This document shows positions 2,345 through 48,599 of a stretch of DNA of 64,000 bases, piece by piece. Each line of letters starts with the position of its first letter. Positions within the stretch are counted from its first letter, which is position 1. The notes below the pieces were generated by a model. It had not been told where the DNA came from. It did not search any database and saw only the letters and a list, made by a program, of their open reading frames with translations. The position numbers were made by a program, and so were the translations under genes. Source of the stretch: Epinephelus fuscoguttatus (lineage: Eukaryota; Chordata; Actinopteri; Perciformes; Serranidae). The DNA is taken from assembly GCF_011397635.1 (NCBI RefSeq), contig NC_064757.1, positions 27,352,339-27,416,338 on the forward strand, in the 5' to 3' direction.

Positions 2345-3747
2345 ATGGATGTCCGAAGTGTGGAAGACTGGAGCAGAGGCGCGCGGGAGGTGGCGGTCCT
2401 CGAGTCGCGGCTGCAGAGCCCGAAAGTGATGGAGAGGGGAGGGGAGCAGCAGCAGCTCGCGGAGTCCCGCATCGAACCTGGACTGACGCTCGTGGACAGC
2501 GGCAGTGACCCACGCGCCTGGCTGGCTCCGGTGCAGCCTTCTGGCACCTGCGCGGCACACGCCACTTCACCCGAGTACCTGCGGCACTCGCCCTGCCCGA
2601 GCACCGGCTCCTACCACGGTGAGAAACGCTGCTTTTAATTTCAAACAGCAATGCAACATCACATTCAACAGGCAGCTGGGATTAGTAGTGGTGATGAAGT
2701 TTTTGGGGGGCGCAGTGCAGGTGTCACACAGGCTTATAGATAGATAGGTGCAAAGTTTATTTTGCGCAATTTAATATAGGCTACTTATGCTATGCTATTA
2801 GTTGACAACTTGAAACAGTCATGAGATGTATATGCATGTATTTTAGGTTGTATTCCACTTCATTAAATTTTTGTTTTCATTTTCATTTTTCAGAGAGTAG
2901 TTCCCCGGAGTCCTCGGGCCACCCCAGCCCTCCCAGCTACAGAAAACCTGCCAAGAGCCCCTCCTCTTCCTCGCTCAAAGTCAGGGACTTGTGCCGTCTT
3001 CAAGGCACGATCCCCGGGCCCGAGGAGGACGCATGCACGAGACAGAGAGCCCAGTCCAGCAGACCTGTCAATGGGGTCCAGAAGCAGAGACGCGTGGCCG
3101 CCAACGCGCGCGAGAGGAGGCGGATGCACGGGCTCAACCACGCGTTCGACGAGCTGCGCAGCGTCATCCCGGCGTTTGACAACGACAAGAAGCTCTCCAA
3201 ATATGAAACTTTGCAGATGGCGCAGATTTACATCAACGCGCTGGCCGATCTGCTCCAAGGTCCGGTGTCCTCCTCTTCCTCCTCCAACAGCAGCAGCAGC
3301 AATAACGACGCGTCAAACAATAACAGCAACTCGCCAAAGTGTGACATTATGCTTTCACCCACTGTTGGGTTTGACGGGGCGAAGGGCAGGGTTTCTCCGT
3401 CCCCTACAACCTGCAGGACAGCAGCGGCGGTGCCCGTCTCAGGTAGCAGCTTACCTGTCCACATCAGCGGGATCCCTTTCCGCTCCTCCTTCGATGATGG
3501 GTCGTTTTCCGCCTTGGTTGAGGAAGCGATGCGCTCGCCCTCTCCTGTGTCCTCCACCCGGGCTGGCAGCTCGCTGGCACCGGTGGGAGGTGGGATGAAG
3601 GAGTCTCCCCGGAGCGACGGAGAGTTTTCCCCGCACTCCCACTTCAGTGACTCGGATGAAATAGCGATGGAGCTCCACTCAAGTGAAGAAGATGACATCT
3701 CAGAACTGAAGCTACGCGGCCACCATCGCCACGCAGTTGCTTTCTAA
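2345..3747 (+). CDS. atoh1: Atoh1, atonal-type bHLH transcription factor
   Basis: Proneural nuclear factor that dimerises with E proteins and activates E-box genes in cerebellar granule, dorsal neural tube, inner-ear and lateral-line hair-cell precursors. Coding exons are 2345-2618 and 2894-3747 (GT-AG intron, phase 1), giving 375 aa. The N-terminus holds the conserved DPRAWLAP segment (55-62). The bHLH is at about 157-213: basic region [20 protein letters not shown], then [20 protein letters not shown] and helix 2 up to [10 protein letters not shown], diagnostic of Atoh1 rather than Neurod or Neurog. A Ser/Asn-rich linker follows the bHLH, and near the end comes a Ser-rich [11 protein letters not shown] motif (ending about 347) as in tetrapod ATOH1. 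A further 28 acidic and His-rich residues follow it. The ATG chosen begins MDVRSVEDW; the frame is open upstream to 2303, but that extension is not family-like. Which teleost paralogue (a or b) this is cannot be settled here. Confidence 0.95.
2619..2893 (+). other. atoh1 intron
   Basis: A 275-bp intron with donor G|GTGAGA, a pyrimidine-rich tract and acceptor TTTCAG. It splits a Glu codon (92) between the N-terminal conserved segment and the bHLH. Reading straight through would put stop codons in the frame, so the splice is required for one protein. Confidence 0.85.
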
Positions 3748-3757
3748 ATGATTAAAG

Positions 3758-3763
3758 AATAAA
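3758..3763 (+). terminator. possible polyadenylation signal of atoh1
   Basis: AATAAA lies only 10 bp past the stop codon. That is very close, so a later AATAAA (4591-4596), leaving an approximately 850-bp AT-rich 3' UTR, is at least as likely to be the main site. Confidence 0.35.
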
Positions 3764-5320
3764 CTATATTAGAAGTTGACTGTAGCCTACAACAAAGTAA
3801 TGTCCGTGTAAACCGTGTCAATCATGCAGTGTATCTGTTGCTAACAAAATGCCGTTTTAAAAAGATGGACATTTTTATTTGCTTTTTCAAAACAGTCCAT
3901 TTTTAACAATAATCCTATTTTATCACCTTGTGACATAGTCTAAAGATTATTTTTTTGTGTGAGATAGGCCTGATTTGGTTCTGCCAATAGATGTATAGCC
4001 TATAATTTCCAGTTTCCATGGAGACGTGGCTGGAAGACCCCTCTGCCATGTCGCGCGCAGCACTGCCATGGGTATTTCCCACGTCACTCCGACCAAAAAG
4101 CTGTCTTCCACAAAATCATAATTTTATGGATAATTGCTTATATTTGATAATGTAAAAAACTCTTTTTTTGTAGCTACAATATTTGTTGTGTTTTTATTTT
4201 TTAATTTGTATGTAGGCCTAATGTATTTTGTTTTGCAACTTCAAAAGTTCATAATGTGCACTTTAAAAAAACACACGAGCCAGAGGCTTGAGAGATGAGA
4301 CTTTTTTTTTTCAAACCATAAACAACATTGTTTTTGCTTTGTTTGCTAGTGTAGTACTGCCAATTCCATACCGATAGCCTATTTAATGTAGCCATCATTG
4401 CTGCCTTCCTTTTTGTATTTTCTTTTGTATCTTCAGTGTGTCTCTTGCTTTCACTGGATGAGATTAATTGACATGTATTTATTACTGATATGTTTCATTT
4501 GATTTTGCATTTTGTAAACTCCATAGTTGAATTTGCTGGAAACAAAAAAGCTATAATTTTTGCCATTTATTATGTTAATTTGATTTTGGGAATAAAAAAG
4601 CAAACGAAAAAATGTGATGTTTCTTTGTGTCATGTTGTTTCTGTGCACCTAGACAACAATGAAGTCTTTTATAGGCTACAGTCAGAATTTATATGTCATC
4701 ATAATTGCCCCAATATAATGCTAATGATTATAATAAAAAGAAAAATAAATAATAACTAATAATAGATAATTTTTTTTTTAATAATTGGAAAATGAAGTCT
4801 GTTTGGACTGTTAGGTTTTAACAACTGTCTTCTAAGCATAGAAGTGGCCAGTAACACAATATTAATCATGATAATAATACAACACTAAGGTTAATTTTAT
4901 AAATAGATGGATAAACAAATAGGTTTTAAAAAAGTTTTAACCCTGCACCTCATTTTAGAAATTACATGTGGGCCTATATAACAAAATTTACATCTACAGC
5001 ACAATAACCTTGATGAATATGCTATGAAAAACGTAGAATAAAATACAAAATTATATTCAATTAAATTACATTCAATTAAATTAAAAACAAACTAAAATAA
5101 AATAGAATAAACTGAGTCACAGTAAATTAACAGGCCCCTCCAGGAGATAATGGCGTGGTCTGCCAATAAAAGTTTGGTCCACTGTTTGCATGTTGGGGAA
5201 AATAGCTGAACCTCACATAAGTAGGCCTCTCCATTTAATTCAAGTAACTTTCAACACTTGATCTTCTCTTATGTAATTTATCGTAAACTAACAGCGACGT
5301 GAAACGTGTCCAACACGCGC
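3764..5320. other. atoh1 3' UTR / AT-rich 3' flank
   Basis: Strongly AT-rich with homopolymer T and A runs and no coding frame with family resemblance. It includes AATAAA at 4591-4596. The first 800-900 bp probably belong to the 3' UTR; nothing else is recognised. Confidence 0.5.
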
Positions 5321-5329
5321 TCGCTCGCC

Positions 5330-5660
5330 ATATGCTGCAGGTGCACGCGCCCCCTGACCCCCAGTCCCGTGATTGAGTGTCCCAAACTGCGACGTTTGTG
5401 GCAACTTTGACGCAGAGAATCGTCGCATTAAATTAAAGCGCAGTGTTGTTTTCGAGCAACAGTCTTCTCCGCACTCAGAGAAAAGTTTGAACTGTTGCCA
5501 TGCCGTCCATTTGGTGAATACCAGATTTGGTAATGGGGAGTGTGCATTAATTTCAGCCTATTGTTGGCAGGCTCGTGGGCCGAGGTGTTGGATGGCCTCA
5601 ATGAAGCACGCGCTGTCAGCTGGTGAGCGCTCGCGGGTCCCCACCGTGTCCCCGAGGACC
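5330..5660 (+). promoter_or_regulatory. Atoh1 3' autoregulatory enhancer (enhancer B-like)
   Basis: The core CTGTCAGCTGGTGAGCGC around 5613-5630, preceded by GCACGCG, matches the Atoh1-binding E-box of the mammalian Atoh1 3' enhancer as I remember it. Atoh1 with an E protein binds this E-box (CAGCTG, 5617-5622) to sustain its own expression. Upstream in the same block are a CAGGTG E-box (5338-5343) and TAAT/ATTA homeodomain cores (5531-5550). It lies about 1.9 kb downstream of the stop codon, closer than in mouse (about 3.4 kb). The surrounding 300 bp are GC-balanced and unlike the AT-rich flanks. Block limits are approximate. Confidence 0.75.
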
Positions 5661-37685: not shown

Positions 37686-39235
37686 AATAAGCCCTACTGC
37701 TGCCACGAATTTAAAGTATTTGGAATAAGCCTTTGAACAGCTCTTATTAGACCTTTTCCAGGTTAAGAGGAGATTTTCCAACATTGTTTATGGCTCAACT
37801 TCCATACTTATCTGTATACCAATCTACTCGTCAGACACTTTTTTGTAACACTCAATCATTGCTTAGATTAAGAAGTCTCTACCCTGCAATGGGGTACAGA
37901 GACCCAGCACATTAGTGTTTTTTTTTCTGTAATGTTCTCAGCAGAATAGGGACAGCTCTTAACACTTGGAGGCAGACCTCATCATGCACCCCATCCCATC
38001 TCAGAAAGTGTGTATCTGCTGCCCCCCTTTGATCAGTTAATGTGTGACAGTCTCTGACTCGCTGCTAAAATATGCTCAGTTTCCCATCTGAGTGTGGCAT
38101 CTAGTGGACAACACACAGACACAGGTGGATTTGACTAAAACAACAGGGAAAAGAAAGTCTGTAACTTGATGAATAGAGTTTATTTGAAAAGTAAATAGAT
38201 TTTACTCTATACAACTGATATGTCTTAAACAGGTGGAACTAACAGCATGAATAATATAAGGGCTGCATTCCACACCATGGTGTTCTTGCTAAATATGGTT
38301 TAGTCTCATAACTAAATGGAATAGAGCCATTGTTGATGTTACTACACTCTAAACTATAACACACTGGTTCAACTTTAAAAAATATGTTAACAATTTGCAT
38401 GCATCTTTTTCAGTAATTCTAACTCTGAGTCAATCTTTTCAGTTTTTCATAATCTGACAAACTCAATTAGTTTAGTACAACTGACATGATTTGCTTTGAC
38501 CTTGAAAAATGTAATTAAGTTGAACCTTAATATTTACTTTACTTAATATTTATCCAAAAGTTGATATTTAATGGTTAAACTATTTTATTTAAGATATTCT
38601 AACTTATTAATTTGAATTCTACACTCAAAAATGTAAAAAATGTTTTGGATTTTGTCCAGCGTCTTCAAGTAAGTTGTCAACTGACTAAAACACGTTATTG
38701 AAATGAACATAAATTTTTAATACTGAAAAACTCATTTATTTTAAGTGTTAACCTCCAACCCCATGAATAATTTTCTAGAGTGACACCCCATGCCTACATG
38801 TAATCAGTGTTTATTTGAGAAGAATACATATCTTTATTTTGCACTTACATGGAAATCTGTCTTTGGCATGACATACACTTAAAAACCTAACAGCCTTCAT
38901 ACACTTACAAACTTTACAGACACATTTACACTTAAAAAAATCCTCTGCCATGGGTTGAAATACATTAGATGAAAACAGTTAATAAGTAATAATTAAGAAG
39001 GGCCAAACAGTTTGGGTGAAACTGCTTACAATTAATGCATGTCTTCAAGAGACATCATGAAAAACAGTTGTAGTCATTAATATCTAATAAAGTCATTTGT
39101 TCAGTAAGATGACAGAGGACGGAATAAAGGATTTCCCATTTTTGTGGGTACACTGTATCATCAGAGGATGTGAAGTGTCCTGAACCACTAATGTTGCTTT
39201 CCTCCTGTGGTGTACAGCTCCCACAGCTGTCTCTG
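37686..39235. other. intergenic, AT-rich, possible small CACTA-like relic
   Basis: Strongly AT-rich. At 38623 a CACTCAAAAATGTAAAAAAT motif followed by GTTTTGGATTTTGTCCAGC resembles the termini of small EnSpm/CACTA derivatives, but I cannot find the other end. No gene. Confidence 0.35.
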
Positions 39236-39779
39236 CACTGTAAACCCGGATAAGTTGAGTTTACTTAAAAAATTTTAGGAAACTGGTTGCCCTAAAAAAA
39301 TTAAGTAATGTTTGATGAAAACTTAAGTGGATTTAACTCAAAAAAATTAGTGGATGGCACTGTTATTTTGAGTTCAATACACTTACTACCAAGTTTGTTC
39401 AACTTAAAATCATTAGTAATATTAATTGCTTTGCCCGTTTATTCCACTGTTAATTTAAAGTTAAGTGCACTAACCTCCAAGTTGATTAAACATAAAAACA
39501 TTAGTAATATCAATTGCTTTACATATTTATTCCACTTATAACTTTAAGCTGAATACAGTAACCTCCAAGTTGATTTACCTTAAAAATTCCTTTGTCCAAT
39601 TACTCCACTACAAATAAAATCTGTTTAATAATAATAATAAAAAAAACTATACAGATTAAGAAAATAAAAAGCAAAACCACAGGAGTACATTCTTGTCAAC
39701 ATGTTTAATTAAATTTGTCTTTATCATGTTATCAAACAAAACAGGTTTGCAATCAAAAAATCAAATAGTACTCTTCTCA

Positions 39780-40610
39780 GTCAGGATGGCATTAATCTAC
39801 AAAATCAACGACAATGCTATTAAACATAGGTAACAATAGGAATTAAACTAGATCTGTGCTTATAACACGAATCACACACCAATTGGCATGGAATCAAATT
39901 GCAAAATCAGTGGCAATGCATAAAAAACTTGCATATCAAACAGTGTCTACAGTAATGGTATTTTTAAAGTGCAACATTACAAGTAACCAAGCACTCAGAT
40001 CCAGACCAGTGGTATAAGTATGTAGACCCGTTTAAACACACAGTTAATTTTTCAAAGATTGAATTTTAGGTTTCACCTCACCTCTGCCCAAGTTGAGCCT
40101 GACCTGCTGAAGAAAGTGGAAGGTGCTTTTCATGCACTGTTGTGAATCAGGATGGCATTAAAACTACAAAATCAATGCCAATGCAATAGGAATGAAAGTA
40201 GATCAGTGCTATTAACACAAACATACACCAATCAACATGGAATTACACTACAAAATCAGTGTCAATGCCATAAAACATACTGTAGCTTGAAATAGTAATG
40301 GAACCAAATTGCTAGATCAGTGCTGATAACAAAAATCATACACCAATCAGGATGGAATCAAACAGCAAAATCAGTGGCAATACATAAAAAAACTTGCATA
40401 TCAAACAGTGCCCACAGTAAACATGGTACTTTTTAAAGTGCAACATTACAGCACTCAGATCCAGAGCAGTGCTATAAGTATCCAGACCCCTGTTTTACAC
40501 AGATAGTTGATTCTTCAAAGATTGAATTTTGGGTTTCAGCTCACCTCTGCCCAGGTTTAGCATGACCTGTTGAATAAAGTGGAAGGTGCTTTTCATGCAC
40601 TTGGGGTAAT
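39780..40610. repeat. tandem duplication at the 3' end of the CACTA element
   Basis: 39780-40145 and 40146-40610 repeat each other: ATCAGGATGGCATTAA, then the AAAATCA-TG-CAATGC, ACTTGCATATCAAACAGTG, AAAGTGCAACATTAC, GCACTCAGATCCAGA and TTCAAAGATTGAATTTT themes. The copies are about 463 bp apart at their right ends. The second copy includes the end of the last exon of the SAMD3-like gene, so the first copy is a decayed duplicate of that exon end. Unit 2 has an extra internal triplication. Confidence 0.75.
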
Positions 40611-42968
40611 CCAAGTGCAATGCATAAATCAGTCCAAAAAGGAGACAGAAAGCCTGTGGCAGGTTGGCCAGCTCCTCCATTACCACACTCCCTTCCAAGA
40701 CGATGCTCACTCTGGATGGGTTGAGTTGAGGATGTTCGTCAATGCAGAGGATTCCCACTGGAGTTTCACTGTACAAGTCCTTGTCAGTTGCATCCTAACA
40801 GAAAAAGAAACAGACAAAGAGAGGACATTGTAATGTCAATAATGCTGTATTGACCACAGAAATTAAGAAAGGACAATGACAATTTTACATTACCATAATT
40901 TGATCTGTGCATTACAAGAGCCGTTTGAAAACGTGTGCTGAAATGGTTTTGTAGCTCAGCAGAGATGGAGAGCTTTTTCAGTCCAAGTCAGGCTGAAAAG
41001 TTGTGTAAAACTATTTCCAATACAGACGCAATTGTTGCAGTTGATACAAATTTAAGACCAGTATTGTTCTTTAATCTCAAAAAGTAAGAACTTATGTAAG
41101 GGTTTTCCATAGTCCTCAGCAAAATAAAAAGAGGGTCCTTACTTGTTGCTCCCATCTCACACTAGCTGATGTCAATTTCACAGAAATAAAGACAAAGGTG
41201 AAAGTTCAAACTTTTGTACAATGTTAATTTGTAATTTAGAGTAGGTAGCAGTAATTTGATTTGTTATAGTAAATTCATATCAGATGGTCGTTGTGAATCA
41301 ATAATGCAGATATTCAAACAAATTCAGTTACTTACCGAGCAGGTTTTGAAGAACGCAGATGGGTCATCCCCAAGACGACTGGCAGTCCCCGAAGACAAAG
41401 GCACCTGATGTCTGTTGGCTCAGTGGTCTGGAAGATAGTGGACATAACTAAGTACACTCATACTGTATATGGTTAAAGAGATACCAGAAAATCCACAATT
41501 TAATTACTTTATTACAAACTTCCTGGGCAGAGAGGAGTGGATAGAAGGACAGAAGAGGAGAGATAAAAATAAGAAAATAGCAAAGTATAAAGAGTTGGAG
41601 AAATGAGGAGGAAATGGAAATGGGAGAGCAGTGAAAAGTAATGAGATGAGAAGAAAGGAGGAATAATAGAGAGGCAAGACAGGCAGTCAGTTTAGGTAGA
41701 CAAGCCTACCTTTGTCTGACGTAAAAGGTCAGTTAAAAGCTGTCCACTGAGGCCCCTCTTCTTCCTGAAGAGGTCCATCAAGTTTGGCGAGAAACGGTCA
41801 AGTGCCTCAAAGAAGTTTTCTTTGAGATTTTTCCCCACCACTCGGGTGAACTCGTAACACACCTGAAAATATAACGTATAGGTTCATGGTCAAATGAAAG
41901 ACATTTATGACTCTCAACACGATTTTTCTCACACAGTGTTGACCACTTTTGTAAATACTCAAAACAGGCATACAAACCTCGTTTTCGGAGAAAAGTGCTG
42001 GCCATCGCTGTACAATCTGGGTAATTGCAGGCTTGTCTGTCACAACTTCTTTTCTCCGAAGAGCAAGGGTCTTATCCATCTCTTTCTTAATAAGGGACCC
42101 ATTTGGCTTTGCCTTCATCATCTCATTGACTAGAACCTGGCGAGCTGCTTCCAGGTTGTGGTCATCCAACCTCTGGATACTGAGGCAGGAAATTTATTTC
42201 TCCTTTCCTTGGCTTCTTGACGTCCTTGTTTGGAGGGTCGCCATTTGTTGAGTATCTTCCACGTTTACCACTGTTGACAGTGACGTCAAGTCGGCCCCGC
42301 TTGCACATTTTGGCTCTGTAATTTCCAACCTTGAACTTCAAACTGTTCTTCCATCCAACACAGCCAGAGGTGACCCCGCTTCTTTAAGACATGGAGTGCG
42401 CCTCTACTAAAGCCTGTGCAACAACCTCTAAATCTTCCTTTTTTGGGTATGCATCAAATGCATAGATGACCTCAGCCAATTTCTCAAGGATATCATGCTT
42501 CAACTCTTTTGTCACTTTAAGATAGGTTCCATCTCTTAGATATAACAAGTTACCTTGACGGAGTCGGTACTCAACATCAACTGAAAATTTAGGAATTTCA
42601 AACACCTCCGGCCATGGCGCACTTCTATCCAGAGAGGAGTTGGACAGGATCTCGGTGTCTGCCAGGCTGCTTGCGTCACTACACAATGAAGATTGTTCAA
42701 CTGGTTGAGTGACTGGTGCCAATTCAATCATAGGGATGATTTTAATTGTTGGCTTATCTGGGAGCTCTGAGACATCTTCAAGGTTACACAGTTCATTGTT
42801 AAAGTCGGGGTCTTGGTACTGCAGGACAAAGTTGTAATTTGCTTGGAGAGTGCCTTTAAGCCAGCCAATCAAATCTTCAAGTGTGTCCGGTCGTGTTGTC
42901 ATTGTCAATTTTCTGATGTCTCCCTCTGAGACAATAACCCTCATGATGAATTTCTCTTGCAGAGCCAT
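40495..42968 (-). pseudogene. SAMD3-like gene with PB1-like N-terminus, decayed, inside the CACTA element
   Basis: Not a host gene in this copy. Minus-strand exons, all with GT-AG borders: from ATG 42968 to 41978, 41862-41710, 41427-41336 and 40794-40495 (TAA). The start (MALQEKFIMRVIVSEGDIRK) and about 70 following residues resemble a PB1 domain. The later exons (FSPNLMDLFRKKRGLSGQLL; ETPVGILCIDEHPQLNPSRV; LFGLIYALHLDYPKCMKSTF) match the C-terminal module of fish proteins usually named 'sterile alpha motif domain-containing protein 3-like'. A lysine-rich segment (GGKRGR/KKPRKGE type) lies between them. Damage: an in-frame TAA near 42384, a frameshift near 42170, and a 1-bp loss near 41365. 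No SAM domain is visible. Its role in the element is unknown. Confidence 0.7.
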
Positions 42969-42995
42969 CTGGGGAGAAAGGATATGCACAAGAAT

Positions 42996-45663
42996 TTAGC
43001 AAATAACATATCGTTTTAATGTTACCATAAGTTCTCCTTGGACCCTGTATGCTGATAACGGGAGGACATCATTCAGCTCCGATATTTTGACCACATGTGT
43101 GGAGGGGATATCACCACAGACAAGTTGGTAAGATCTCAAATGTTCACAGTACCATGTGGTCATTTTGTGGCAGATGAACAGGATTTCTGTGTTAGCTGCA
43201 ACAATCTTTTCAATCTGGGCAAATTCAGAGAGACCTGAGCATGAGCCAAAAGAGAGGATCATGCCTGGATGATACATGATTCCATCTATACAGACAGATG
43301 ACACATCCAGAACAGAATCTACCTTTGCAATGTCTCGAGCAAATACTCTCTGAACATTCAAAGGGAAAGAGGCAAGCAAAACTGGGGTAACCCTTGTCAT
43401 CTCCACCGATGGTTTGAAAAATGCGCTGCAGTCAAGATGGTAACTGACTGCTTTCTGGTGTTTGTAGTGTCATTGCAACATTTTTGAAATTTTGAGCGTT
43501 GTGAATTGCTTTTTAAAGAACTTATGTTTCCCCTCAAAGCGCATTGTCCAGACATCGCAGGGACCAAACTTCCTCACAAGGTAAGGATAGTGTTCCAGAT
43601 AGTGATGCTTTGGCTTTAACTGAAAACCTGGAAAAGTTGACTGCAGAAGCCACCTGTGTTCTGTTATTTTACATTCCATGAAATGCAGTGTCTCTTCAGT
43701 ATGCCTTGGTGCCACAGCCAGCTCAATTATGTCTTTAAGAAGCATCAGAATTTCCCAAGTGTCATCACCCTCAGGAACACAGTGACCAATAAGAAGTGGG
43801 AGGAGCCTTATGAGACACCAATTCTCATGGCCATTTCCACCAATGCTTCCTTTGGTGGAAAATCCCTTTCCGATGATCTGAGGGCGGTCTGTTTTGTCTG
43901 TGAATGTATAATTAAAGTGTCTGATGGTCTGATTTAGTGTGTCTAACGTGAAATACCTCTTGCTAATCAGATTTTTAAGACAGAGGCACAACTCAGTTGG
44001 CACAATGCCTTCAAAGAGGTCGCAAGATGTCGGGAGGATACCCTGTCACTACATGAAAATGCTCAAGATTTTCAGTTAATGGACATGCTCTTTTCACACC
44101 ATAAGTCTGAGTCAGTTCTGAGTCCTCTCTCACCTCCTGCACTTGCTTATCATGAGAGTCTTTGTCTCTGAGCTGAAAGAATCCAGAACATACCTCTTGC
44201 TGCTGTGTGTCTTTGCTGCTTGCTAGACAGAATCTGCAAAACTTGTCGACCTTGAAACTCTCCAGGAATCCTGCAAGAGAATGTGCACCAAGATTATCAG
44301 CGGCAACATATAAGACCGTGCCCTTCACACTTGCACCCAGTGACTCTATGTAAACACCATTTTGCTCCAATATCTTTAGATCATAGATGAGAGGTCGCAG
44401 AACTTTTGCATAACCACACTCTTTAACTGTAGAGGTATTGCATAGTACAGCAAGCTGGATTGAGTTGAGGTGGACCTGTATTTTGCAGGTATGTTTGCAA
44501 TGACCCAATATACTGCACACATTTTATGTTTCAGTTTTGACGTTCGAGAGGATTGGCTACCTCAAAGTCAGTCAATGTAAAGGCCAAGAGCAATTGTGAA
44601 TTCATCGCTTGCAAGAAGAGAATTTTCATTAAAGTACTGCCCATCTGCATAAGATGTGTATTCCTGCAGTACATGGACTTTTTCTGACATAGCTTTGTCT
44701 AACACATCAGTTTTGTTAAGCAGTTTCTGGAGCATTGGAACAATGGGGACATATGCAAGTGGTTTTTTGCCTTTTTCCACAACATACTCAATAGGGTTGA
44801 CCAGTGGGAACTCTTTGCGTACATAGGCTGCTCTCTTTTAGCAGTTTCTAAGGGCCCATCTTTGGCACAAAATGACATCATGTTACACTCTGACACAGCA
44901 CTGGTAATTTCGCTCACAACTGTATCATCCACATTATCAAAGTATTTATTTAGTGTAGCCCTCACTTTGTTGTGCAGAAGTGGCTCTGACAGCTTATTGA
45001 TTTGACAAAGCTGCTGTAATATCTCTTGCACAGAACTCTCTGGTATGTGCATAACTGTTTGCATCTTTAACAGAAGAGATGCTAAGTTGTGCTCTAGCTG
45101 CTTTCCTAAATCATGAATATCATTCTCACTAGCTTCTTCACTAACTTCTTCCAACTCTGACATGTCATCAGCATGTGATATTTGCTCTTGTGCATCATCC
45201 TGATCATGACCTTCATCATAATCACAACCAATGATTTCTGACTTGAACCTCTTCCAGCTGTGTCCCTTGTGTGTTTTACTCTTGTGTGCTTTGAACGTGG
45301 AGTAGACACTGCTTTCAAAGTCACAGTCTTTATAAGGGCAACTGACTTTATGGTTGACTTTTAAGTGTGCATTATGCAGGTGACTAAAGTAGTCAGTTTC
45401 AGTACATGACTCAGAAAACCCACATGACAGACAACAAAACTTTACTGGTACATCTACAGTCGGTTGCTGTTCTGAAGGTTTGGTGTGAAGGCGGGATAAG
45501 TGTACTTTTAGTGCATTGAGTGATTTGAATGTACATAGACATTCCTGGTGTAAACATGGGAATGGTTCTGTTCTTGCATAGCTCCCATGTTTTAGTCTAT
45601 AGTGCTTAAAAGCTGTGCTCTCTTGTCACAGATGAAAGGGCAGTACTTACACTTCCACAACAT
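42996..45663 (-). pseudogene. C2H2 zinc-finger/TNP2-like transposase of the CACTA element, decayed
   Basis: From ATG 45663 the product begins MLWKCKYCPFICDKR. C2H2-type fingers follow (KHYRLKHG; CLHQECLCTFKSLNALKVHL; CPYKDCDFESSVYSTFKAHK), then an acidic coiled stretch (45170-44880). The large transposase-like region includes DNLGAHSLAGFLESF, FCRFCLA, PPDIL, then LKPKHHYLEHYPYLVRKFGP and WTMRFEGKHKFFK. The last motif resembles the DUF4218 region of plant TNP2 transposases. Breaks: frameshifts near 45610, 44830, 44540-44470 and 44013, and stops near 44568 and 43471. The final segment ends LMVTLKRYVIC at 42996. Cut-and-paste transposase function is inferred from family resemblance plus the CACTG termini. 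The gene is not functional here. Confidence 0.75.
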
Positions 45664-46005
45664 CTCTTCTGGAGACTTGCAACACAATATCAGAGAAAAA
45701 AAACCAAGAGAGACTAATGTTACTTTGTGGAAGTAAAGAGGGTCACATGCACACTGCAATATCACAGCCTGGTCACATGAATACAGTTAACATTTGACAG
45801 GTGATGTACCAACAATTAATGGCAGATAACTTGAGTGAAAAACTACACAAAAAATATGCAATTAGTGTAGCAAGAGCAAAAATTTCCAATGCTAAGAAAC
45901 AGGAGCTTCAAATATCCTTTTGAGCAACCTTTTCAACCGGCCACAACACTGGAGATTAGGTTTAGGAGAAGATTCAAAATATCGATTTTGCGCGCGGGTG
46001 TGGCG

Positions 46006-46019
46006 GGGGGGGGGGGGGG
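46006..46019. repeat. poly-G run
   Basis: A 14-bp G tract within the CACTA element, upstream of its transposase start. Confidence 0.95.
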
Positions 46020-46059
46020 AGTGTGGAGGGTCTTCACTGCTAACTGCTAACTCTAACAA

Positions 46060-46700
46060 GTGAAAACATCAGTATTAATACTTAAAATGTTGTTTTCACT
46101 GCTCACAAACAGCTACAAAAGCTATGTGTGTCTTAGAGAAAAATGTCCGTTAAAATGCTTTAAAGTTACACTGCCAGCCAAATGTGTCCTAACATTAACT
46201 GAACGTTACCACTTCAGTTTAGCTAATGAAAACGTGATTCCCCCCCACTGCTCTAACAGTCATTGGAGCTAACGTTAGTGCTAACTTTAAATCAAAAGCC
46301 ACCAGAGTAAAACGCGGTCGCTCACTCACCAGATTCAGTTGTCCTGTCACCCTCTTTTTTCCGTCTCTACTTTACTCGAGGCACAAGTCGTCTGGCAGGG
46401 CAGCCGCAGCGCCAACAGCTTGTTTACTGTGTGTCTTTGAAGTGTAATTGTACGTTAAAATGCTTTACACCGCTAGCCAAATGTGTCTTAACATTGCCAC
46501 GCCAGTTAGCTGATGAAAACGTTTTTTCACTGCTCTAACAGTCTTTGGAGCTAGTGCTAACTTTGAATCAAAAGCTACCACAGAGTAAAACTGCTCACTC
46601 ACCAGATTCAGTCGTCCTCTTGCCCTCCTTCTTCGTCTGTTACTCCATTTGACGCACAAGTGGTCGGCCACGGCAGCCGCCAATGGCTTGTTTAGTAATA
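46060..46700 (-). promoter_or_regulatory. duplicated first exon/promoter of the CACTA transposase gene (predicted)
   Basis: Two copies, about 46110-46420 and 46440-46690, offset about 281 bp, share AATGCTTTA, GCCAAATGTGTC, TAACAGTC-TTGGAGCTA, TCACTCACCAGATTCAGT and a GC-richer end (GGCAGCCGC). On the minus strand each has CTGAATCTG|GTGAGTGAG, a strong splice donor. A pyrimidine-rich acceptor (TTGTGTTGCAAG) lies about 15 bp before the coding start at 45663. I infer alternative noncoding first exons with their own promoters. Confidence 0.5.
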
Positions 46701-47479
46701 AAATAAAAGTTTCCACTGCTTACAAATTACTCCTCGTTGTAGATAAAAAACGAATAAGTTGTAAAATGTCTGTCGGACACAACAGCAACGAACAGTTGAA
46801 AATACGCAGAAGTGACGTGCTGCAACATGCCTTCAGGCAGGTGGCCTATGCTGCATTCAAGTGATGTCAGAATAATCGGGTAAATGATTTTCCGACTGAC
46901 AAAGATCACACAAACACTGATAGGCTACAGTAAATATCTGCCCGTGTAGAGTAAAATAGATTAGTGAGTTATTTATTTGCATAAACTATAATATCAATGA
47001 TACCAAGTCAATATTTTTTGTGATTTTAGGCATTGTAGAGTCTACTAGTAGAACACAACAACAAGTCTGGGATAAAATCACTGATATAAAGCTTAAAAAG
47101 TGTTTCTGCATAGTTGATAACAACATTAAATATCACCAGAAACGGCTAACCATGTCTTTTTAAATGTTTTCAGTATTAAAATATAAAAAATCTTCTTTGT
47201 AGCATCCACTAAGTTGAAAAATGACCTCGGGAAAACTGAACCTTCCTATACTACTTGAATGCAGCGGAAATGTAAGAGGCGTGGTCATGACCAAAACTTA
47301 AAAATTCCATCTCACGTAACTTAAAGTTACTCATTCATGGCATTACTTTCGAATGTAAGTTTATTCTACTTTGAATTAGTAGACTGCACTTAAATTTAAT
47401 TGTTATACAATCAAACTTAAATTATTTATGTACATTGAAATTGATTGTTTGAGTAGAAATGAAATCCGGGTTAACAGTG

Positions 47480-48599
47480 TGGGGGTTTCCTATAATCTTA
47501 GTTAAATTGTAGTTATAATTTTTTATTATCATAATTATTTTTTGCCTTTGTGTGTGTAGGTAACTACTGAAACTACAACCAATTTTTGGCCATAAAAGAC
47601 ATTATTTTTCATGTTTATTTTATTATTGATTCTCTACTGATCAGCCCCGCCCCTTTTGGCTGCCATCCTGACCGCTATGAAGGCATGCCCAGGCAGTACA
47701 TCCGCCAGGCAGCCACTGCATTCTTGACCCTCCCGATTACTAGTAACTGTAAGTATTGTTGTTTTATCGTTATTTATGTATTATTGTTATTTATTAGCAA
47801 ATATTCAGAGAAGTTGTTGCATGCTATTCTAGTGGTTACTTGGCCAACTGAGTAATACTGCTTGGTGCAATCCCCCCACATGGACTCTCTTTATGTAGGC
47901 AGGTGACGGAATGATGGGTATGCAAAACCAAAGCTGGCATTCCTGCACTTTAGTGATCCTTTTTTTGTTTTGTGTTGCTTTGCTTTATGTATGATCTTTT
48001 TAAAAGTGGGTCCTTTCTGCAATAAACTCATTTCAGTGGCATGTCTTTACTGGCATCTAACTTTTTTTGCTGTAATTTTTTGTATCACATGCACTCTATC
48101 AGTTTGATTGTTTTGTTGAAAGTAGTTTGAACTATATTTTCTTAGTAGCTGCAGTTAACCAAATTAGATTTCTCCCTAAGATAGCTTTGCTGTAGTTAAA
48201 CTTCTTCCGGTGTAAATTAATACGCAGCTTGCAAGACTTTGTTTTCCAAGAAGCTTCCCCGTCACTGCAATTGATGTGATTACTTTACATCAGTGCTTAC
48301 CCAGCTTATAAGGCATATTTGGCCCCATGTGTTCCCTTACATCACCACATCACCACATCACAGGTTTCATAAGCGATGTTGGCTCTACCGTCAAGATAGT
48401 TCCCCTCTTATTCTTTTCCCCATTCACGGAATACACCGTATACCACACTTAAACGCCTCAAGGCCTTGACACTTTATATATGAGACTACGCTAAGTAAAT
48501 CACAGGAGTCGTAGGTGGATAATACAAGCTATGAATGTTTCGCTATTGACAATGACAGGCTGTTAAAATAAGTTTATGATTGAGCGCCCTAAATCAGAT
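47480..48599. other. intergenic between the CACTA element and smarcad1
   Basis: AT-rich except 47640-47750, a GC-richer island encoding PDRYEGMPRQYIRQAATAFL on the + strand, which I cannot place in a family. No gene supported. Confidence 0.4.

Follow-up and report, generated by a model that had tools for sequence, protein, structure and literature searches.

The window analysed here is a stretch of 64,000 nucleotides from Epinephelus fuscoguttatus (NCBI RefSeq assembly GCF_011397635.1, contig NC_064757.1, positions 27,352,339 to 27,416,338 of the forward strand). It contains a transposon with two genes on the reverse strand: a transposase gene and, directly behind it, a spliced second gene (gene 2). 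The positions of all features are collected in Table 1. The name 'SAMD3-like', given to gene 2 in a preliminary description of this DNA, is kept here as a provisional label for a presumed resemblance to SAMD3. The same description had placed both genes between terminal repeats and a TG duplication, and this arrangement was confirmed: 15 of the 16 positions match between the terminal repeats, and four copies carrying both genes were found.

Table 1. Features of the two-gene transposon; positions are counted from the first letter of the window, and a hyphen within a motif marks the splice border.
Feature	Position	Strand	Basis or remark
Whole two-gene transposon	39236..47479	.	8,244 bp; four near-identical copies with different flanks
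TG, left half of target duplication	39234..39235	.	Flank comparison
Left terminal inverted repeat CACTGTAAACCCGGAT	39236..39251	+	16 bp; 15/16 match to right end
Left subterminal region, ACTTAA-rich	39236..39635	+	6 seen vs 1.1 expected
Last coding exon of gene 2	40495..40794	-	Splice borders
Coding exon 3 of gene 2	41336..41427	-	Splice borders; conserved in L012, L013, and L014
Coding exon 2 of gene 2	41710..41862	-	Splice borders
First coding exon of gene 2	41978..42968	-	Starts at splice acceptor CCCCAG-ATG
PB1-like beta-grasp domain of gene 2 (modelled stretch)	42711..42968	-	AF2, Foldseek, VIA-align
Transposase gene	42996..45663	-	ATG at 45663, stop ends at 42996; frame broken by indels in the window copy
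Putative non-coding first exon b, near-copy of a	46330..46407	-	Donor GTGAGT from 46329; 5' limit uncertain
Putative non-coding first exon a	46603..46680	-	Donor GTGAGT from 46602; 5' limit uncertain
Right subterminal region, ACTTAA-rich	47080..47479	+	4 seen vs 0.6 expected
Right terminal inverted repeat, reverse complement CACTGTTAACCCGGAT	47464..47479	-	16 bp; 15/16 equal to left
TG, right half of target duplication	47480..47481	.	Flank comparison

The terminal sequences of the window element read CACTG..CAGTG. In the genome (about 1.05 Gb in 26 contigs were searched), three further full-length copies were found on contigs C23, C17, and C10 (8,239-8,254 bp; 99.1-99.3% identity), and both genes were present in all four full-length copies. 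Two relatives, L013 and L014, represent a second family (family 2) with the same ends, genes, gene order, and orientation. The flanks were TG/TG in the window and C23 copies and TA/TA in the C10 copy; the C17 copy was flanked by CA/GC, without a duplication. Among the relatives, 2-bp flank duplications were observed in L012 (TA), L013 (CG), L014 (CA), L015 (TA), and L042 (CA; right end located allowing up to 4 mismatches). Equal 2-bp flanks were found in eight of the nine copies with both ends located (chance about 2e-9 with the 16 dinucleotides assumed equally common), a count that omits L016 and L017, which have one recognisable end each. All eight duplicated dinucleotides are pyrimidine-purine steps. 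Pairwise, the four full-length copies differ by 11-22 substitutions over about 8.2 kb vs 19-37 small insertion or deletion (indel) events, many of the indels being private and many lying in short homopolymer runs. Small indels interrupt the reading frames of the window copy, and none of the four full-length copies has every frame open; the excess of indels looks like noise from the assembly in a family of very recent origin, with decay as a less likely cause.

An intact transposase frame of 882 amino acids was found in the relative L013. The N-terminus of the transposase shows finger-like patterns of C2H2 type when read by eye, with Pfam finger matches below the cut-offs. Behind the fingers, the motifs follow in the order D...D...C(2)C...H(3)H...E. 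This set was common to four aligned transposases (those of the window family, family 2, the C16 relative, and the distant C9 relative), with the variants CRFC/CRVC/CRYC and HYLEH/HYIEH/HYLLH; the columns of the D, D, and E residues, which were assigned by eye as catalytic candidates, are shared. The best curated Pfam model for the window-family transposase was Plavaka (PF18759; E 2.5e-5, 24.1 bits, cut-off 26.3), and the family 2 transposase was matched, well below the cut-off, by Transposase_21 (E 0.021, 14.4 bits, cut-off 28.6). Transposase_21 was absent from the Pfam listing for the window family and Plavaka from that for family 2.

The four coding exons of gene 2 (42968 to 40495) have GT..AG at all borders. 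Its ATG lies 27 nt behind the transposase stop in the window and 25 nt in L014, and the acceptor in front of it reads CCCCAG-ATG in both families and CTCAG-ATG in L012. Ahead of the transposase, both 5' exon-like stretches (near 46.6 and 46.3 kb) are kept in all four full copies; L012 has one such stretch, about 240 nt ahead of gene 2, and the same pattern search matched none in L013-L015. This anatomy of exons, donors, and acceptors suggests a single promoter with alternative splicing for both genes. The putative 5' exon region forms tandem near-copies (46166-46680) in the window family and occurs as a single copy in L012.

Gene 2 is a regular, lasting part of the transposon lineage and not passing cargo, because it is linked to the transposase genome-wide and selection has acted on it. 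Between the window family and family 2, the identity is 59-78% for transposase pieces and 41-67% for gene-2 pieces. For the transposase, the proportions of nonsynonymous and synonymous differences (pN/pS) came to 0.19/0.70, and for gene 2 to 0.21-0.22/0.73, as calculated with a simple Nei-Gojobori script that omits stop codons, synonymous sites being near saturation between families. For gene 2 of the window family and L012 (which has stops), the ratio of the corresponding rates (dN/dS), from the same script, was about 0.21. Both genes evolved under purifying selection between families; for gene 2, the preliminary description had proposed such a test between copies.

For the linkage census, matches separated by no more than 3-4 kb were counted as one locus, and the locus coordinates were entered manually in the scripts. 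The search with the first exon of gene 2 (119 of 154 candidates scored) gave 122 matches and 88 loci, designated gene 2A. The full transposase (51 of 453 candidates scored) was found at 46 loci; at 35 of these, gene 2A follows downstream at a distance of at most 20 kb and on the same strand (0.04 pairs expected by chance). With the transposase core (150 of 197 scored), the same held for 54 of 141 loci (0.12 pairs expected), and the gap was under 4.6 kb in 50 of these 54 pairs. When the loci were divided at 45% core identity, a limit chosen after viewing the list, gene 2A was downstream at 52 of the 62 loci at or above it and at 2 of the 79 more distant ones. A diverged form, gene 2B, was searched for with a query from the C9 relative (62 of 62 candidates scored); it occupies 34 loci, none overlapping a gene-2A locus, and follows 18 of the 79 distant transposases (0.03 pairs expected by chance; the pairing was tested against distant loci alone). 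The proposal that the second gene belongs regularly to the element is thus borne out by the identical layout of family 2, by 52 of 62 close loci, and, in diverged form, by 18 of 79 distant ones.

The case for homology of genes 2B and 2A is made by two profile matches, one for the middle part at E 1.5e-4 and one for the C-terminal part at E 0.0013, with order and strand as expected. These were the sole matches below E 1 for both profiles among 2,860 open reading frames (ORFs) from seven stretches and part of the window. The profile of gene-2 exon 2 found just the locus partly used to build it and missed an ORF of L041 that resembles exon 2 by eye. Pattern searches of viral contigs gave 8 and 6 matches, with no relative among them.

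The head of gene 2 is predicted to adopt a beta-grasp fold as in PB1. The AlphaFold2 (AF2) model of the stretch given in Table 1 reached a predicted local distance difference test (pLDDT) score of 75.2, and in Foldseek its ranks 1-7 were all PB1 domains, at 11-18% identity. The PB1 profile (PF00564) matched the relative L040 with 27.4 bits (cut-off 23.6) and remained below the cut-off (19.0-21.3 bits) in three of eight gene-2 N-termini. The fold and Pfam evidence favours, without proving, a PB1-like N-terminus. A phmmer search with one head stretch returned nothing but unrelated chains (E 0.15 or worse), and a profile from eight gene-2 N-termini matched no PDB chain. A first AF2 model of 194 amino acids (pLDDT 46.1) was too poor to use. 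A DIX identity, prompted by a likeness, was also considered; PB1, itself unproven, was preferred because a DIX chain appeared at Foldseek rank 38 and in 0 of 50 VIA-align rows. A SAM domain was not matched by Pfam in the window gene 2. In L041, the one paired gene-2B locus examined, a SAM-like ORF (3684-4031, reverse strand; PF22931, 21.5 bits, cut-off 25) lies N-terminally between a distant transposase and a diverged gene 2, at the place that PB1 takes in the window element.

According to PMC12730594, elements of the CMC/CMCT clade (CACTA/EnSpm, Mirage, Chapaev, Transib, and kin) encode a DDE transposase in which the second D is followed, ahead of the last E, by the motifs C(2)C and H(3-4)H; their ends are of the type 5'-CA..TG-3', and their duplications measure 2-5 bp. 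The window-family transposase has this motif set, and the element has CACTG..CAGTG ends with 2-bp duplications in eight of nine copies. Membership in the narrow EnSpm/CACTA group (CAC..GTG ends, 3-bp duplication) was rejected: the ends fit, but the duplications are 2 bp. Plavaka supplied the best curated transposase model, just under its cut-off, and was rejected on its ends, which are given in the same paper as TGT..ACA or CATCA..TGATG. The element was filed as a variant of the CMC/CACTA type, outside narrow EnSpm.

Two-protein systems are known among relatives. In PMC1636069, maize En/Spm encodes TnpA and TnpD in tandem in one alternatively spliced transcription unit; transposition is reported to require the tnpA product as well as that of tnpD, and TNPD interacts with TNPA, stabilising its DNA binding. 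The window element resembles En/Spm in its two tandem-encoded proteins, CMC-type motifs, and short repeats near the ends, and differs in the PB1-like head of gene 2, the 2-bp duplication, and the finger-like N-terminus of its transposase. By analogy, gene 2 may be a parallel of TnpA/TnpD. For SmTRC1, an animal CACTA relative from Schistosoma, the same paper describes alternative splicing, a transcript with two tandem ORFs, and direct repeats of 2 bp that were interpreted as target duplications; its authors found the second proteins to have no similarity to any other element from animals or fungi. SmTRC1 shares the 2-bp duplications and the spliced tandem ORFs with the window element, whereas gene 2 contains a recognisable domain and recurs across many families. 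An animal CACTA element with two products is thus not new, since SmTRC1 has spliced tandem ORFs; a conserved, widespread, PB1-headed second product was not found in the literature searches. These searches returned no transposon with a PB1 domain and no paper that linked a SAMD3-like gene to a transposon, a PB1 domain to EnSpm, or a CACTA transposon to a sterile alpha motif, and among the papers listed, titles and abstract openings named no conserved PB1-headed second gene of an animal CACTA element. The predicted fold of the head resembles known PB1 domains (Par6, PKC iota, NBR1, and p62; PF00564), from which it differs by its low identity (11-18%).

The outer 400 bp at each end, taken as subterminal, are rich in ACTTAA (counted on both strands; Table 1), and the interior of the window element has 2 vs 6.2 expected. 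In family 2, the left, right, and interior counts were 4, 3, and 2 (expected 1.0, 0.6, and 5.7). Family 2 is a partial independent check, in which 6 and 8 of 300 shuffles reached the observed level.

Several incomplete copies were recognised. L015 has the same ends and part of the transposase, and lacks gene 2. Short end pairs in inverted order lie on contigs C1 (2837532-2838116), C22 (35471183-35471661), and C7 (45021427-45022461), with lengths of 0.48, 0.59, and 1.0 kb among them; these are probably non-autonomous derivatives. The preliminary description had counted copies with the same termini and without gene 2 against its reading; such copies do exist (L015 and the short pairs on C1, C7, and C22), as ordinary deletion derivatives would, and copies that lack one or the other gene look like such derivatives. 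Five of the 34 gene-2A loci without a transposase core were inspected (L040, L043, L044, L012, and L030). Transposase pieces still lie upstream of gene 2 in L040, L043, and L044, and in the 4 kb inspected of L030 the transposase trace is weak (16 residues). Domesticated host genes, which the preliminary description supposed to exist among 'SAMD3-like' paralogues, may be present among the core-less loci.

The explanation favoured here, with moderate confidence in it as a whole, is that the window element is a recently active CMC/CACTA-type DNA transposon with 2-bp target duplications, whose lasting second gene would be expressed by alternative splicing and would encode a TnpA-like, PB1-headed accessory. 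One strand encodes two proteins in tandem, a finger-bearing DDE-type transposase and the spliced protein with its PB1-like head. Both would come from one promoter, with the 5' exon spliced to the transposase exon in one transcript and to the acceptor at the gene-2 ATG in the other. The gene-2 protein, by analogy with TnpA most likely an oligomerising accessory, would assemble via its PB1 head (for which at least one sister-group member has a SAM-like one), collect on ACTTAA-type motifs near both ends as predicted binding sites, and hold the ends together for the transposase. An animal CACTA-type lineage, like plant En/Spm, retains a second conserved protein, whose head now has a likely name. 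The availability of young copies that are nearly identical makes it possible to test the accessory role in an animal, and some of the 'SAMD3-like' gene models that occur in multiple copies may belong to transposons.

A number of observations weigh against this explanation. The splicing of gene 2 was deduced from splice-site letters alone. Gene 2A was absent from 10 of the 62 close transposase loci, and neither 2A nor 2B was found at 59 of the 79 distant ones; conversely, no transposase core lies within reach of 34 of 88 gene-2A loci and 16 of 34 gene-2B loci. L012 (on C19) combines CACTG ends, a TA duplication, and gene 2 with no transposase match; the preliminary description had expected gene 2 at unrelated loci with no CACTG ends to speak against its reading, and gene 2 without transposase occurs here within CACTG ends, which fits a deletion derivative. 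Within families, the selection ratios ranged from 0.3 to 1.7, with changes too few to judge selection. The PB1 domain claimed earlier for the head stands on Foldseek ranks 1-7 and the L040 match, but the window's own stretch had no Pfam match, the best Foldseek E value was 0.0048 (no row at E 0.001), and VIA-align placed PB1 level with ubiquitin-like folds. ACTTAA was chosen after viewing the window, and two longer variants of it were less enriched, with no occurrence at family 2's right end.

The strongest competitor, rated as rather unlikely, is that gene 2 is a host-survival accessory (a transposition repressor or silencing antagonist) acting outside the transposition complex. L040 and L043 would suit it, having the first gene-2 exon open with most of the transposase gone, which is unusual in that deletion derivatives need retain no gene. 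A precedent is offered by fungal CMC-type elements, which in the excerpt of PMC12730594 carry TET/JBP enzymes thought to aid escape from silencing. However, no enzyme domain was matched in gene 2, and its position directly after the transposase, in near as well as distant relatives, fits a function shared by the two. An improbable alternative is a transposase-PB1 fusion protein produced by splicing of a 55-57-nt intron: ATG-GT(A/G)AC stands just ahead of the transposase stop in both families, and splicing from it to CCCCAG-ATG would keep the frame. Vertebrate introns are rarely so short, and in L012, which has no transposase match, gene 2 is retained behind a 5' exon donor. Scarcely credible, and largely refuted, is the recent capture of a host gene as neutral cargo by one family, which the 34 core-less gene-2A loci would allow, but which is contradicted by purifying selection between families, by linkage at 54 loci with the diverged form at 18 more, and by transposase pieces at three of the five core-less loci inspected.

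Beyond the favoured explanation of a transposon with a TnpA-like accessory, a wider scenario is offered tentatively, as a possibility that may well fail: the conserved TnpA-like body would predate the split of the two transposase groups, its head would have been swapped between PB1 and SAM as two unrelated modules that self-polymerise, polymerisation would build the complex, and the element would be the ancestor of the SAMD3-type genes of vertebrates.

Some minor candidates and features were also noted. Gene 2, suspected in L045 and L046 from a few ORFs, was rejected, the profiles giving nothing better than E 1. Ends were sought in L039 and L041 without an accepted pair; one pair in L041 (12/14) was discarded because the last gene-2 exon would fall outside it. 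In L017, two traces of gene-2 exons lie nearly 8 kb away from its end. Downstream of gene 2 in the window, a truncated second copy of the end of its last exon lies at 40035-40154 (duplication spacing about 460 bp), and these internal repeats are likewise present in the three other full copies. Inside the ends of L012, arrays of a 152-bp tandem repeat occupy 3453-4342 and 4901-5437.

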